In this document: positions 8,758 through 59,212 of the stretch, piece after piece
Layout: every line of letters starts with the position of its first letter
How positions within the stretch are numbered: position 1 is the stretch's first letter
Origin: Rugalucina vietnamica
Lineage: Eukaryota; Mollusca; Bivalvia; Lucinida; Lucinidae
Direction of reading: 5' to 3'
Assembly (NCBI GenBank): GCA_964017185.1
Contig: OZ024870.1
Location: 57,166,312 to 57,230,311 of the forward strand
Length of the DNA stretch: 64,000 bases
Program-made: the position numbers and the translations under genes
Notes under the pieces: model-generated
What the model saw: the letters and a program-made list of their open reading frames with translations, nothing else
What the model was told of the DNA's origin: nothing
Database searches by the model: none

Positions 8758-9377
8758 TACATGTATATATGAACGAATGGAAGGTAGTTCTCCGGCTTTT
8801 TGCAACGATACGAAATATATTTCGTGGAATTAGAATTTTTGTGTTGTTTGTGAGTGTCAGGAAAATTATCATGCATTGCAAAATGTGACTGCAATTTATT
8901 TAAAGCATACTGTAATTGAACTGTAATACCTAGTCATTGCAATCAGAAATCAATTGTCTTTGAAAAACTAAAGTTGTTTCCAGATATAACCAAAATTAAA
9001 AGATAAACGGAAACAATAAGGGTCGATTTTCGAAAATAGATAAGGAAAACATGTCTTTGTCATGTTACAATATGTGTTTGCGTAAATGTGCAAGACTGAA
9101 CTATAAATGGGTGGTATGATGCTAAAGTGAACCAACCCACTATTCTAATCAATATTGAGTTATCTCCCTTGTCACCTCTCCATTATTAGAGCTATCAAAT
9201 GGTCTATCCAATGTTTCAATAGAGTACTTATGGCGGGAAATATAAAGTGGTTGAACTAACCCACATCTATTGAGTATATAATAAGCATGTCCTGCCACAT
9301 TGTTCTAACCAAGTATAGTGTGTTTGGTACTAAGCACTGTTGGTGCTAAAGTGAACTATTATATATCTCAATCCAAG

Positions 9378-10244
9378 ATGGCTGCCGTCAAAGAGCAGCT
9401 GCGGTTGCAAATGGAGAAAATTTCAGAATCTTTGCCAGAAAAGATATTTTCAGACAGCAGCGACGCGGAAGACCTTGACGACACTGACAAAGACCCGAAT
9501 TATGAACCAGGGGGTCAGTATATTTGCATATTTATGGTGTTTCAGCTTTCATTTCAGGAATAGAAGCACATGGTTGTTTTGTTTATTTTGTCAGACCCAC
9601 AGAACTTGCTTTTGAAGTCAATTTAGGAAATACTTGTAACAAATCAAATTATGTGAAACCAAAGTCCCTGTTTGCGATATCTGGTAATGTAAATTAATAT
9701 TTTTTTCTGCAGAAAATGATAAAACAATTAAGTATTCGGTTAGTTCACTTTAGACAAAACATAGGCTATGGTTAGTTCACAACATCAGGAAAACATGTCC
9801 GTGAAATGTATACCCCCTTAACCCCCAATTTTAATAGTAAAACTGGATTTTGCAGTGGTATACCTAGTTTTTGTATTTTTGCTCCAAAACATAGATTGTG
9901 AGTACTCGTTAGAACCATCTCGGCATAACCGCCTCGGTGAGGCGGTTCTAACATGTACTCACAATCAATGTTTTGTCCAATAATATTAAAAAAATCATTT
10001 TTTCTAATGATAAAGTTTCATATCAATACAACCGTGAACGAGGTATCCAGGATTTCTGGAAATGGGGTTCAAGTATATAACATTAATAAAACACGACTAT
10101 GGAACATGAAACTTTATCATGTCATTACGAAAGCATGCCCATAAAATATACAGAGATTTTTTCAGGTGTTTTTTTTTTTAATTTTAGAGGACCATATGTG
10201 AGATTAGTCAATGTACTAAATATGTCATTCTCTTTAAATAAAGA

Positions 10245-10304
<60 letters not shown>

Positions 10305-13300
10305 TAATATACAGAGATTTTTACAGCCATAGAAAAATGGACGAAAGTTCGACCCGGGTGCTGGGGGATACTCAAATAATTATAAAATGGGTGTGTATGT
10401 GCCCCGGTATGTTAAAGGGGACTTATACAGTGTAAGATGATTTAAAATGTACAGATGATTTAAAATTGGATAAGAATCGCTATAAACAATACAAATAAAC
10501 TAATTCGCATTTTGGGTATCATAGGTAGTAGTTCCTACAAAGGTCAAAAATCATAGTTTGTATCAGTGGGCAATGTTTGAATCACGTTATCCAAGATGTT
10601 AGGGAATATTGGTACCGAATAAACTACCAATTACTGTTACCCACTACTGTTCTGCTGATCGTGCGAAAACTTATTTAGACTTCTAACACACCTCGCCTAT
10701 ATAGCCAATGGTAAAAAAACGTGTTATATTGTGCAACAATTTCACTGGGCGAATAAGCGTGACGTTACTTTGCGGCATTTGTGACGTCAGCTATCCCACA
10801 AAGCAGCGTTAGACGGTGAAACGTCGTTCTAGCGCACAACAAACGTAATAAGTGTGTGTAAATACCAGCAATACAGTCAAATATTTGGCGGGATGTCGGC
10901 AATGCAATGGCGGAAAGCTGAACGATATCGACGGTTTCAGCAACATTTATTCCGTTTATTGTGTGTTAGAATCGAAATAGATCAGCTCAAGTGCGTGAAT
11001 TGTTGAGTAATAATTCACTGTTTGTCGGTCAGTTGTAAGAAGATAAATCACTCGCGCTACGCGCTCGTGATTTGATCTTCTTTACAACTGACCTCCAAAC
11101 AGTGAATTATTACTCAACAATTCACTGCTAGAGCTGATCTATTTCTTAATTATAATCATTAAAACAACAACAACAACAGCAACAACAGCAAAACAAAACA
11201 AAAAATCCTGACCTGCCTTTTAGTCAGAATCAGCTCATTTTGTGGAGTTATGTCCCTTTTTAAAGGGTTGGAATGCAATTTTGTAGTATAATCATTTTGA
11301 AAACACTTATTTAACAAGCTTCGAACTAGGTCAGCAAATAAGAGGACCATAAATGGAAAAATAAACTGCTATGTTTTCTAACTATTCCAATGATATCATT
11401 CTTTCAGAAAATGAGAAAGATACTGATAGTGATGGTGAAAGTCAAATTAGTGCGTTCCAAACTGAAACTCAGCCAACAACCGCATCTGGTCAACACGAAA
11501 ATGACACAACTTTAGATCCAAATGCCGATGATGAGAGTCACAACAGTAATGATGGTCAGAAGGATGAAAATAACAATGTCACTGATGAGAAAACTAGTAG
11601 CAAAAGAAAGCGGAGAGCCCCAGAAAACTGGAAGAAGAATATTAGGAAAAAGAAAAGGAACAGTGGTGAACAATATGTAACAGCAAGAGGCGAAACAAAA
11701 GCCGCTAAAACGTTTACTGATTTCAGTTGCTTCTGTCCATTAAAATGTAGTGAAACTGTACCCGTTGAAAGCAGAAAGAAATGCTTTGATACCTTTTATT
11801 CAAGCGGAAGCTGGGAAATACAGACAATGTATATAGCTGGACATGTGAAATCACAAGAAGTTTATAGAAGATATGGCAAAGGAAGCCCAAGTAAATCAAG
11901 GCGACAGAATACCAGATATTATTATCTAGATAACACTGATGGAAGACCAAGAAGGGTATGCAAGACTATGTTTTTGAAGACTCTAAGTATTGATAGTGCA
12001 CGTGTACACAGAGCCTTACTGAAAGCTGAAAGTGGAAACCTTATTGATCAGAGGGGTAGACATACCGCATGGAACAAGCGAGAGGAATCAGATACAGAAT
12101 ATGTGAAAGAGCATATCACAAGTTTTCCAACATATAAATCTCACTACAGTAGAAAAGATACAGAAAAAGATTACTTATCACCAGATCTTAATCTATCACT
12201 TATGTACAGACTTTACAAAACGAAATGTGAAGAGGAAGAAAGAAATCCAGTTAGCCAGTCATCTTATAATGACATCTTCTACAAGAATTATAACTACAGC
12301 TTCAAGCCACCAAGCAAAGATACATGTAAAACTTGTGATATGTTACACACCCAGATCAAAGCTGAGAGAGAAAAGCCTGAAACAAGTAAAAATATAGAAA
12401 AACTCAGAGCTGATGAAGAGAAGCATGAAAAGCACATCGCCGAAAGCAATAAGGCACGTCAGACATTGCAAAGTGATCAAACTGATCCTAAAGCTGATCA
12501 GTCTAAAGTAACAATTACTTTTGATCTACAGAAAACGCTCCCAACCCCAAAGCTTACAACTGGAATTGCCTATTATAAACGCCAATTATGGGTGTATAAT
12601 CTTGGAATTCATGTATTTCAGAATGAGGATGACAAAGCCTACATGTTTATGTGGCATGAAGGACTGGCATCTCGTGGTGCTCAGGAAGTATCATCTTGTT
12701 TGAGATATTTTGTTCAACGCCAAATGCAGACAGGGGTTCGACATTTGACTGCTTGGTCCGATTCTTGCGGAGGTCAAAATAGAAATATTAAGGTTTGCTG
12801 TATGTGGATGCACTTACTATCTATATCTGATCTTGAAACTGTAAACCACAAATTCCTTGAGAGTGGCCATTCTTATTTGCCATGCGATAGCGACTTTGGC
12901 GATATAGAAAAATATGCGAAATCACAACAACTAGTCTATGAGCCAGAAGAGTGGTATAAAATTGTACGTGACGCACGCATCAAACATCCATTTAATGTTG
13001 TCAAAATGAAGATTGAAGACTTTGTGTCCACTTCTGAGTTAGAAACTGCTGTAGTAAACAGAAAGAAAACAGAAGACAACGAAAAGGTTGAGTGGCTGAA
13101 AATGAAACATATTCAATTTCGGAAGTCGTCACCATTGGTTCTGTACTACAAATACAGTCATTCTGATGAGAATTTTAAGAGCGTTAGTCTTGCTCCCAAA
13201 AGGAAAAGTAAAAGTGGAGAAATATCTTCAGATCCCTCTCTCCTCAACCCAAAAGGCAGAACCATAACTAAGGAAAAAATGAAGGATCTGAAAGATTTGC

Positions 13301-13416
13301 TTCCATACATCCCGCCAGTGCATCACAAGTTTTATAAATCCTTGAAAGGTGATGGTAGAGTGGTGCTAGATGATATATGCGGAAACAATATTGATTATGA
13401 GTTGGAGGAAGATTAA
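9378..13416 (+). CDS. Two-exon DUF7869-type (transposase-like) protein; exons 9378-9513 and 11408-13416
   Basis: Exon 1 starts at ATG 9378 in a good context (CAAGATGG). It encodes 45 residues ending DKDPNYEPG and stops at a GT donor (9514). Exon 2 follows the pyrimidine tract and AG at 11406-11407. The phase-1 junction restores glutamate, and the spliced CDS is 2145 nt (714 aa). An acidic N-terminus is followed by a basic patch, a cysteine-bearing region (CKTCDML), a predicted coiled coil, and a core with three candidate acidic positions: TFDLQ (D418), WSDSCGGQNRN (D497) and GHSYLPCDSDFGDIE (H533, D539, D541, E546). The DSCGGQNRN signature is typical of the widespread DUF7869 family in invertebrates, often regarded as transposon-derived. 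Its place inside TIRs supports a transposase role (inference). The frame is intact, so the element may be recent. Confidence 0.82.
9781..9985 (-). repeat. Hairpin MITE (AACATAGATTGTG family), partial
   Basis: It contains ACATGTCCGTG at its left end and a central inverted repeat pairing GATTGTGAGTAC with GTACTCACAATC, plus GAGGCGGTTCTAAC. It is related to 15021-15290, 39648-39880, 46612-46766, 57990-58252 and 58932-59212. It is nested in the intron of the DUF7869-type gene. A separate left terminus (CATTACGAAAGC) is at 10123. Confidence 0.6.
10249..10302. repeat. (ATT)n microsatellite
   Basis: Uninterrupted ATT repeat of about 18 units within the intron. Confidence 0.95.
10974..11145. repeat. 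Long foldback (hairpin) element
   Basis: GAAATAGATCAGCTC at the left is the inverse of GAGCTGATCTATTTC at the right, and most of the arms pair. The centre reads CTCGCGCTACGCGCTCG. It is a non-coding foldback MITE nested in the intron. Confidence 0.8.
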
Positions 13417-13458
13417 TTGGGATTATGGTATATTGTGTTATTTGTCATTTCAGTTCTT

Positions 13459-14265
13459 ATGCTACCTGATGAGGTTTTGTTGGTGATTATGAAGCTGTTG
13501 AGTGTTGAAGATACAATCAGTTTGTCAGCCGTCAATAAGAGATTTTACCGTCTGGCCCATGACAGAGAACTGTGGAAAGAGTTCTGTTTAAACAAAGATC
13601 CACACGAGAATGAGTCCCTTCGCAACATCATTGCAAGACACTGTCTTCATTTTGAGAAACTTCAGTATGAAAATCAACGGGGAACACTTTGGAATTATTT
13701 TGCACTGTTATGTATTCAATCACAGTTGATGTTGTGTAAGAATGTAACAGAAATCATTTTAACTGATAATTTAATGATACAATCCTTGAAATTTGCAACT
13801 TGCATGCCAAAGCTCAAAACTATTGATCTAAGTGGGTGCAATTTATTAAGCAGTCATGAGCTACAGTACTTATATGGACATCCAGGGCTAAAAGTGGTTC
13901 ATTTAAGAGAGTTTCATGAACTAAGACATTTCCGAGGCTTTCACTTTGTTGTTGAGCTAACACAGAAAGCCAATATTGAAGAGCTTGACATAGAGAGAAG
14001 TACGTACATAACCCCCAAAACTTGTAAGGCCATTATCAATGGCAGTCATTTAAAAGTACTGCACTTTTCTCCAAAGTGGAAACGACCACCTGCCTGGAAA
14101 ATTTTCAATGACACTTGTCAAGGTATTGAATTTGGATTAGACTTCAAGGCAGTCCTTGAATTCAATGTATCGGGGTTTAGATCATCAAGATTGCTTGAGC
14201 TGTATAATAAAGCACCGTTCTGGGCTACATTTGACTCTGAGGAGTCTGAAGATGGCGAAAATTAG
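13459..14265 (+). CDS. F-box protein with LRR-like C-terminal region, inside the DNA transposon
   Basis: From ATG 13459 to TAG gives 268 residues. An F-box begins at once (MLPDEVLLVIMKLL, then LSAVNKRFYRLAHDRELWKEFC), the Skp1-binding domain of SCF ubiquitin ligases. Residues from about 95 on contain leucine-rich segments (LKTIDLSGCNLLSS, LKVVHLRE, IEELDIE, LKVLHFS), a likely substrate-binding part. The tail is acidic (DSEESEDGEN). An AG acceptor with a pyrimidine tract ends at 13453, only 37 bases after the DUF7869 stop, so this could be a spliced 3' exon or a separate unit starting at the ATG. It lies inside the TIRs, so it is cargo or an accessory gene of the element. The substrate is unknown. 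Confidence 0.75.
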   Translation: MLPDEVLLVIMKLLSVEDTISLSAVNKRFYRLAHDRELWKEFCLNKDPHENESLRNIIARHCLHFEKLQYENQRGTLWNYFALLCIQSQLMLCKNVTEIILTDNLMIQSLKFATCMPKLKTIDLSGCNLLSSHELQYLYGHPGLKVVHLREFHELRHFRGFHFVVELTQKANIEELDIERSTYITPKTCKAIINGSHLKVLHFSPKWKRPPAWKIFNDTCQGIEFGLDFKAVLEFNVSGFRSSRLLELYNKAPFWATFDSEESEDGEN

Positions 14266-14882
14266 TTTATGAACATGGTGTTGGGAAAGTAACGATTCAA
14301 AAGCCTGATTTAACATAATGGTAGATCTACGTTATATGTGCCTTCGCGTTAACAAAGCCAACAATTTGGGTTTCCGACCAGGTACGACAAAATCCGGGCT
14401 GCACGGTGAAAGAAGATGGCTAGTACCTTAAAATTTTGTATTTACGAAGTAGATGGAATGTACTATCTGTGTAGCGAAACAAAAGCGCTGATCAGCTTCG
14501 CGGTTACTAACAAAAAGCTGATCAGCGCCTATGTTTTCACATATGCAATTTGTTGGTGTTCTTGTTAACGGCTAAAATTACATTTTTGTTCAAGTTCACA
14601 GGTTTGTTTGAGAGTTCTTTTTTAAAATTATATTTGTGAAGGATAGTTCAGTGTGGCTCAATCACCTGAGATAATAGCAAAGAATCAATGCTTAAGTGAA
14701 CTATCCCACAAAATCATTGTTTTAAAAATACTCATGGGATGTATAAAACTCTGCAAATGCACAAATTTATACACAACGAATGTCCAATCACTAGAACCTA
14801 AAACCTTTTCAAGGAATTTATGTTTGTCTGTTGGGGGAATAAAAAATGATAAATCGTGAGTTTCTCAATAGCAACTGTTAAG
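14266..14882 (+). other. 3' region of the DNA transposon
   Basis: Apart from the nested MITE, it contains subterminal motifs (14641 inverted, 14695) and AATAAA at 14838. No further gene is seen. Confidence 0.5.
14360..14580. repeat. GATCAGC-hairpin MITE inside the DNA transposon
   Basis: It carries a central pair AAAAGCGCTGATCAGC / GCTGATCAGCGCCT and the flank GGTTTCCGACCAGGT. Relatives are at 16510-16610, 49890-50110 and 58660-58870. It lies 3' of the F-box gene and probably inserted later. Confidence 0.6.
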
Positions 14883-15020
14883 GGGTTGGTTCTCTCTAGC
14901 ACAACACCACCCAAATATCTGGCTTCAAATGAAGTTTTCTAATGAAAACTGATATCTTCTATATGCAAATACACAAAACTATGTGATTTATACATGGTCA
15001 GATCAGAGAAGTCGTATTTC

Positions 15021-15290
15021 CATTACGAAGACTTGCCCGTGCAATCAATATACAGCGATTTTTTTCAACTGTAAAAAAATTTAAAGTTACATTGGAAAAA
15101 ATCTTCGATATTTTTTCATATTTTTGCTTAAAACATTGATTGTGGATACGCGTTAGAACCATACTCACAATCAATGTTTTGGATCATAAAATTTAATAAC
15201 AAAATAGGTATATCTCCTGTAAACCCCAGTTTTAAGAATATAAAGTGGTGTTCAATGGGGAATACTTTTCACGGACATGTTTACCTTGTA
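15021..15290. repeat. Hairpin MITE (CATTACGAAAAC family)
   Basis: It runs from CATTACGAAGACTTGCCC to ACGGACATGTTTACC, with a central pair ATTGATTGTGGATAC / ACTCACAATCAAT. An equivalent copy is at 39648-39880 in block 2. Confidence 0.7.
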
Positions 15291-38787: not shown

Positions 38788-39647
38788 ATTCAATCACGTT
38801 GGCTGTTTAAAAGATGAGGCGTTTGCATGAGAAAAACAGTGATTTTGGTTTGCGACCAGGTCCGTCCCGTCACTAACCAGACTGCACAGTCACAGAATGC
38901 AGGCTAGACAAAGGCGAAAATCAGCTGTGCAGTTACTCCAAACGTTGTCTAATTGGGCGACCTCGCAGATCAAAGTTTTGCTTTGCGTTGCACATTGCGG
39001 TTCACTTATTTTAGGAATTCTGATTTGATTACCTCAGAGATTCTCTGACATAAACCGAGATATAAAACGATAATTAATCAGTCAACAGACAGAGAGTGTT
39101 TAAGACAGGTTTGTATATAAGATGAATAAGCAGCTGCTTCGAAATAAGTTGAAGTCGCCAGATAGTTTTTACAACAACATAAGCGTAATGTGCAATATTT
39201 GCCAGACCACTTTTCCACACATTGTAATTATATGAACGAATAAAAGGTAATTCTCCGGCTTTTTTCACCGATAGGAAATATATTTCCTGGAATAAGACTT
39301 TTGAGTGTCAGGAAAATTATCATGCGTTGCAAAATGTGACTGCAGTTTACGTACAGCATACTGTAATTGAACTGCTTTACTGTAATTCAATTGTCTTTGA
39401 AAACTAAAATTGTTTCCATATATAATCAAAATTAAAAGATGAACGGAAATAATTAGGGTCGATTTTCGAAAATAGATAAGGAAAACATGTCGTTGTCATG
39501 TAATGATATGTGTTTGCATAATTGTGTAAGACTGAACTAAAAATATCTGGCTTCAAATGAAGTCTCTAATGAAAACCGATATCTTCTATATGCAAATACA
39601 CAAAACTATGTGACTTACACATGGTCAGATCAGAGAAGTCGCATTTC

Positions 39648-57989: not shown

Positions 57990-58252
57990 GTAATTTATAG
58001 CTTTTGTTGAAGTTGAAAAAATGAAAAATGAATGTATATAGATAAATTTCATATTTTTTCTTAGTTTTGCTCAAAACATAGATTGTGGGTACACGTTAGA
58101 ACCGCCTCAGCGGGGCGGTTCTAACGAATACCCACAATCTATGTTTTGGATCAAAAAATAAAAAAAAAAAGTATACCCCTCCATAACCCAGTTTTGCTTT
58201 ATAACAGTGGGATATGAGAGGTATACATTTCATGGACATGTTTTCCTGATGG
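57990..58252. repeat. Hairpin MITE (AACATAGATTGTG family)
   Basis: AAAACATAGATTGTGGGTAC and GTACCC-type inverse around 58070-58150 form a strong hairpin with GAACCGCC / GGCGGTTC. It ends at ACGGACATGTTTTCCTGATG. An inverted terminus piece follows at 58410-58475. Confidence 0.68.
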
Positions 58253-58931: not shown

Positions 58932-59212
58932 CATTACGAAAACTTGCCCATGCAATATACAAAGATTTTTTGTGCTTTAAAAATTGAAAATTTTCAGAAG
59001 AAAAAAAATGATATTTTTTTTTTGTTTTTGCTAAAAACATAGATTGTGGGTACAAGTGGTTCTTACGCCTCGCCGAGGTGGTTCTTACGAGTACCCACAA
59101 TCTATGTTTTGGAGCAAAAATAAGAAAAATAGGTATACCCCTGCATGCCCCAGTTTTACTATATAAAAGTGGGGTTTGAGGGGGTATACATTACACGGAC
59201 ATGTTTTCATGG
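58932..59212. repeat. Hairpin MITE (CATTACGAAAAC family), complete
   Basis: From CATTACGAAAACTTGCCCAT to ACGGACATGTTTTCATGG. The central pair is ACATAGATTGTGGGTAC / GTACCCACAATCTATGT. Confidence 0.72.

Follow-up and report, generated by a model that had tools for sequence, protein, structure and literature searches.

A probably Sola-like DNA transposon with a DUF7869-type gene and an F-box gene in the bivalve Rugalucina vietnamica

Structure of the element

We analysed a stretch of 64,000 nucleotides from the genome of the bivalve Rugalucina vietnamica (contig OZ024870.1; hereafter the window), in which a DNA transposon forms a complete unit of 5804 bp at positions 9109–14912. It carries a two-exon gene for a protein of the DUF7869 type, followed by a gene for an F-box protein (Table 1). 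The left and right terminal inverted repeats (TIRs) agree with each other in 25 of 30 bases; the next-best inverted match of the left TIR anywhere in the window reaches 18 of 30. An identical AAAT on each side forms a 4-bp target site duplication (TSD).

When the flanks of the element are joined with a single copy of the TSD, they align with another copy of the flanking repeat in the window, with 268 of 292 columns identical. Because this alignment runs across the junction without a gap, we regard the paralogous site as a real empty site. A first-pass annotation made from the sequence alone had given the same element coordinates, TIR match and duplication, all of which proved exact, and had placed the empty site at 39531–39555, around the AAAT recovered here.

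According to the list of open reading frames (ORFs), only two genes in the element have frames of more than 100 codons. Joined at the predicted splice sites, exons 1 and 2 of the larger gene encode 714 amino acids without an internal stop. The F-box ORF starts 42 bases past the stop of that gene and is also intact, in agreement with the gene content proposed in the first pass.

A motif scan revealed GTGAACYA motifs, which are possible transposase binding sites; 5 of the 12 matches in the window fall inside the element, a count made with no shuffle control.

Table 1. Features of the transposon and related sites (positions in the window)
Feature	Position	Strand	Basis
Target site duplication, left (AAAT)	9105–9108	.	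Read directly; identical to 14913–14916
Left TIR (GGGTGGT...)	9109–9138	+	25/30 against right TIR; genome-wide TIR pattern search
GTGAACYA motifs, candidate transposase binding sites	9127 (within TIR), 9351, 9741(-), 9773(-); span 9127–9780	.	Motif scan
Exon 1 of probable transposase gene, 45 codons + 1 base	9378–9513	+	ATG-opened frame up to GT donor; splice inferred
Intron, GT..AG	9514–11407	+	Sequence
Exon 2 of probable DUF7869-type transposase gene, including stop	11408–13416	+	683-codon open frame
Predicted RNase H-like catalytic core	12442–13014	+	AlphaFold2 models, VIA-align, conservation
Predicted triad codons D418, D497, D539	12523–12525, 12760–12762, 12886–12888	+	Models and conservation
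Candidate 3′ splice acceptor ahead of F-box ORF	13441–13453	+	In phase with exon 1 donor; in silico splice
Second gene, F-box and leucine-rich-repeat protein, 268 amino acids	13459–14265	+	Pfam, intact ORF
Right subterminal GTGAACTA motif	14696–14703	+	Motif scan
Right TIR	14883–14912	-	TIR comparison; genome-wide TIR pattern search
Target site duplication, right (AAAT)	14913–14916	.	Sequence
AAAT of paralogous empty site	39541–39544	.	Joined flanks align 268/292 across, no gap at junction
Copies of the 29-bp unit AACATWGATTGTGAGTACTCGTTAGAACC	9888–9972, 15132–15160, 58075–58145, 59080–59108		Motif scan with shuffling

Other copies of the element in the genome

Further copies were sought in the genome of the same animal (1.09 Gb, 47 contigs), and the match counts given in this section are lower bounds. 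A second full copy of 5783 bp lies at C7:10204248–10210030 in unrelated flanks, between perfect ATTT duplications. It is 99.4% identical to the window element (5772 of 5805 columns, with 10 mismatches and the remainder indels). Since the two full copies are nearly identical, the family appears to have been mobile recently. The earlier view of 9109–14912 as a complete mobile unit is thus confirmed by a sister insertion with other flanks and another TSD. In the C7 copy the larger gene is broken early in exon 2 by a 2-bp difference; in the window copy it is open throughout.

If as many as 3 mismatches are allowed, the TIR pattern occurs at 6 places in the genome, namely the four ends of the two full copies and two decayed relics, both of which adjoin ATAT (the reversed-pattern control gave 0). 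In the relic on C7 at 8.07 Mb the right end survives along with fragments of the F-box gene; of the one on C11 at 27.28 Mb, some 290 bp at the right end are all that is left. TIRs standing alone everywhere, which would have spoken against a gene-carrying unit, were thus not what the genome contained. The first 192 bases of the element are found at 2 places, both 100% identical; for its right 353 bp there are 5 matching stretches, spread over 4 places. We found neither many copies nor miniature derivatives of this family in the genome.

Catalytic core of the predicted transposase

The only Pfam profile that matches the window protein is DUF7869 (PF25273), at 17.4 bits (E 0.0034), under the gathering cut-off of 26. 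A related protein of the same genome, from what we call family E, scores 66.4 bits, and in hhalign the two align over 379 columns (97.8%, E 8.2e-13) with the same three aspartates. Three proteins scanned against NCBIfam gave no match, and no relatives were found in viral contigs, prokaryote genomes or PDB sequences.

AlphaFold2 models the core of the protein as an RNase H/integrase fold, and VIA-align matched this model to integrase, mariner, Argonaute and Prp8 RNase H-like folds. No hAT or piggyBac structure was among the best 50 structure matches listed, which excludes neither. We compared sequences in two alignments, A1 with 15 rows selected from the 57 tblastn matches described below and A2 with 13 rows, several of them near-identical copies. 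D418, D497 and D539 are conserved in A2 and lie at RNase H positions of the models.

The first-pass annotation had predicted an RNase H-like fold around D418, D497 and E546. The fold and the first two residues are supported by the models, but the third is not: the E546 position is occupied by K in the family-E protein, and all 12 A2 rows that reach the D539 column have D there. We therefore rejected E546 and read the predicted triad as DDD. Taken with the models, the conservation and the TIR-flanked units of related families described below, this makes the larger gene very probably that of the transposase and supports the mobility context that the first pass had suggested for DUF7869 proteins.

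It is worth mentioning that within the intron of this gene, at 10995–11125, two 44-bp arms that are 95% complementary flank a 43-nt loop; this inverted repeat may be a small nested element. Six copies of the 29-bp unit AACATWGATTGTGAGTACTCGTTAGAACC (at most 3 mismatches), some arranged as inverted pairs, lie inside and outside the transposon; shuffling expects 0.

Related families and their target sites

The window protein has 57 tblastn matches in its own genome, itself included, and the DUF7869 profile has 144. The latter include 21 very short ones clustered at C10:43977133–44020383, perhaps a tandem repeat resembling part of the domain. Once neighbouring loci are joined, the best relatives prove to be parts of complete units with TIRs and TSDs, which fall into four families: A (C14, 7605 bp, TSD ATAT), B (C1, 5197 bp, ATAG), C (C17, 4653 bp, AACC; C12, 4654 bp, AAAT) and D (C11, 4826 bp, ATTT). 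Their TIRs match at 22–24 of the first 24 bases and the duplications are identical on each side; we placed the first base of each element where the flanks agree. An OTU-like cysteine protease domain scored above cut-off in 4 of the 10 related proteins scanned, in families B, C (twice) and D (L010 on C1, L011 on C17, L012 on C12 and L005 on C11). In each it lies N-terminal to the DUF7869-type transposase within a single open frame.

The two flanks differ (CGAT/ATAT) in one family-A copy on C13, which adjoins a further copy. At C13:28430911–28442968 (L008, L048, L007) two family-A elements, 98–99% identical, stand head to tail with nothing but AT between their ends (CCCCACG-AT-CGTGGGG), where an ATAT duplication is usual.

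The C12 copy of family E measures 5303 bp between TIRs, with AAAT on both sides. A genome search with its TIR gave 74 occurrences, against 0 for the reversed control; they form 21 inverted pairs within 12 kb, two of which share one end. To relate these to genes, we used 12 genes resembling family E, taken from those of the 144 profile matches that span the greater part of the profile without a break, with others of similar coverage omitted. Six of the 21 pairs hold one of these 12 genes and the other 15 hold none of them, which would fit a family that includes non-autonomous elements. Seen from the genes, 6 are enclosed by a pair, 2 are close to a single end and for 4 there is no end within 8 kb. 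Eight pairs of 3243–3608 bp without any of the 12 genes (e.g., C3:48019988–48023286 and C6:5038827–5042163) are perhaps a non-autonomous or differently coding subfamily.

For two further families, F and G, element ends were not found, as similarity between copies ran nearly to the limits of the examined stretches. In total, DUF7869-type genes lie inside their own TIR units in six families, the window family included. The TIRs of the families compared are very different. DUF7869-type genes of the other families are flanked by these TIRs of their own, again with 4-bp duplications, so the genes are not without TIR flanks, which would have refuted the first-pass reading.

Target sites were counted over the 22 insertions whose ends were in hand; families F and G and most DUF7869 matches lie outside this count. 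AWWT was found at 17 of the 22 insertions, over six families, against a background of 4.7% of window positions. In the window family the sites are AAAT and ATTT for the full copies, besides the ATAT of the relics. For family E we set the boundary on the C12 copy; the right ends of six further copies are all AWWT, and the left end of one additional copy is ATGT. Both ends could be read for nine insertions over the six families, and in eight of them the duplication is identical on both sides; the ninth is the one adjoining another copy.

The F-box gene

The product of the second gene matches the Pfam families F-box-like (45.5 bits, E 6.4e-12, cut-off 24.3) and F-box (32.4 bits, E 7.5e-8, cut-off 20.5); its leucine-rich-repeat matches lie under the Pfam cut-off. 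Judging from the pieces left in the older C7 relic, the gene was in the family before that relic decayed. Its presence in both full copies and one relic is a new-looking feature of such an element.

The F-box ORF is preceded by a good acceptor whose phase fits the donor of exon 1, and splicing in silico (9513/13454) yields an open frame, a phase match expected by chance in one case out of three. Alternative splicing may thus produce a joint product of exon 1 and the F-box ORF.

Elsewhere, at C11:21.77 Mb (L043), an open frame resembles the C-terminal half of the F-box protein (28% identity) and has a similar acidic tail. The scanned stretch gave no F-box match there, and another open frame of 322 amino acids lies nearby.

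Discussion

We propose that the product of the two-exon gene is a DDD transposase built around an RNase H-like core. It would bind the TIRs and subterminal repeats, cut the element out and insert it at AT-rich AWWT sites through cuts staggered by 4 bp. Judged by its domains, the F-box/leucine-rich-repeat protein would be an adaptor of an SCF ubiquitin ligase. Its most likely role would be to alter the stability of the transposase or of restricting host factors, and its gene may share exon 1 with the transposase gene.

Published Sola elements have a DDD transposase, 4-bp duplications, sizes of mostly 2–9 kb and TIRs of 11–1124 bp (PMC10741241). Dictyostelid Sola2 elements duplicate AT-rich AWWT sites (ATAT, AAAT, ATTT), have TIRs of 12–21 bp and carry captured Fanzor1 genes (PMC3627910). 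The element described here has the 4-bp TSD, the AWWT target, a model-based DDD triad, short TIRs (25 of 30) and lengths of 5804 and 5783 bp in its two full copies (4.7–7.6 kb over all measured copies of the families). It also carries a second, unrelated gene, as Sola2 does, although this encodes an F-box/leucine-rich-repeat protein, with an OTU protease domain in related families, rather than Fanzor1. In the first pass the transposon had been called possibly undescribed and its superfamily unclear; given these shared traits, both statements are probably too strong, and we are probably dealing with a known superfamily of which this element is a new variant. We place it as Sola-like, probably Sola2, by its traits rather than by similarity of transposase sequence. 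All in all, we consider it likely that the locus holds a recently mobile Sola-type element of the cut-and-paste kind (Sola2-like, most likely) with a DDD transposase and an F-box gene.

The same mechanism might belong to a DDD superfamily apart from Sola1–3 that merely shares the 4-bp AWWT duplication. Such a reading would suit the very different TIRs of the families, the lack of any Pfam transposase match among 15 proteins scanned, and our search of a literature library, which returned nothing on DUF7869 or its motif. We nevertheless hold it to be unlikely, as every testable trait coincides with those published for Sola and bivalves are reported to have 14 Sola2 and 8 Sola1 curated elements (PMC10294476). 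It is much less probable still that another transposase mobilised the unit in trans, with both proteins as cargo. The activity of the window protein is predicted from sequence and models, which leaves some room for this, but the element has no long frame beside its two genes, the predicted fold is of the integrase type with conserved aspartates, and DUF7869-type genes recur in units of six families with differing ends. Least credible of all, on our estimate, is membership in another known group with 4-bp duplications, Ginger1 or the TTAA-inserting piggyBac and Kolobok, which we rejected by target site. Kolobok inserts at TTAA, a sequence seen at none of the 22 sites. The same count opposes piggyBac with its TTAA specificity (PMC7351741), and the CCGG or CCGT/ACGG targets and TGTNR ends of Ginger1 (PMC2836005) differ from the AAAT, ATTT and GGGTGG found here. 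Moreover, the Pfam scan of the window proteins revealed no integrase or piggyBac domain.

A function of the F-box gene is plausible, and its main rival, to which we give somewhat less than an even chance, is that the gene is a mere passenger, a captured host gene fragment with no part in transposition or host interaction. Sola2 elements with captured Fanzor1 (PMC3627910) offer a precedent, two copies that are 99.4% identical are too young for selection to show, and the F-box protein matches only four genomic places. Against this, the gene is intact in both full copies (267 of 268 amino acids identical), is already present in the older relic and has its acceptor in phase with exon 1, and the theme recurs in the OTU domains of the related proteins.

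OTU, Ulp1 and ubiquitin hydrolases occur in transposons, and the ubiquitin pathway has been suggested to act in transposition (PMC2836005); the F-box gene and the OTU domains of the sister families would extend this theme. More speculatively, and with doubt outweighing confidence, DUF7869 could be the catalytic domain of a DDD lineage that repeatedly acquired components of the host's ubiquitin machinery (an F-box adaptor, an OTU deubiquitinase-type domain) to steer the stability of transposases or restriction factors. We found no literature joining Sola with F-box or OTU among the matches listed.

What makes the element valuable is its F-box gene and the link that it provides between DUF7869 and transposition. 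If our reading is right, an uncharacterized Pfam family would gain a concrete job as the transposase of AWWT-targeting DDD transposons, supported by complete units that represent six families within a single genome. Because the window copy has both its ends, frames that are open and a nearly identical insertion elsewhere, it lends itself well to a transposition assay. Through its F-box gene and the OTU domains, the suggested role of the ubiquitin pathway (PMC2836005) becomes directly testable.

Two known systems come close in this respect. Ginger1 elements with OTU or Ulp1 share the 4-bp duplications and the joining of a ubiquitin- or SUMO-type protease to a transposase, but they differ in their CCGG-type targets, TGTNR ends, Gypsy-type integrase and C-terminal protease, and their description, in the parts that bear on these features, mentions no F-box (PMC2836005). 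Caenorhabditis F-box genes with a mariner helix-turn-helix likewise combine F-box and transposon parts; there, however, a host F-box gene gained a transposase domain, whereas here the F-box gene stands as a gene of its own inside a transposon (PMC12062965).
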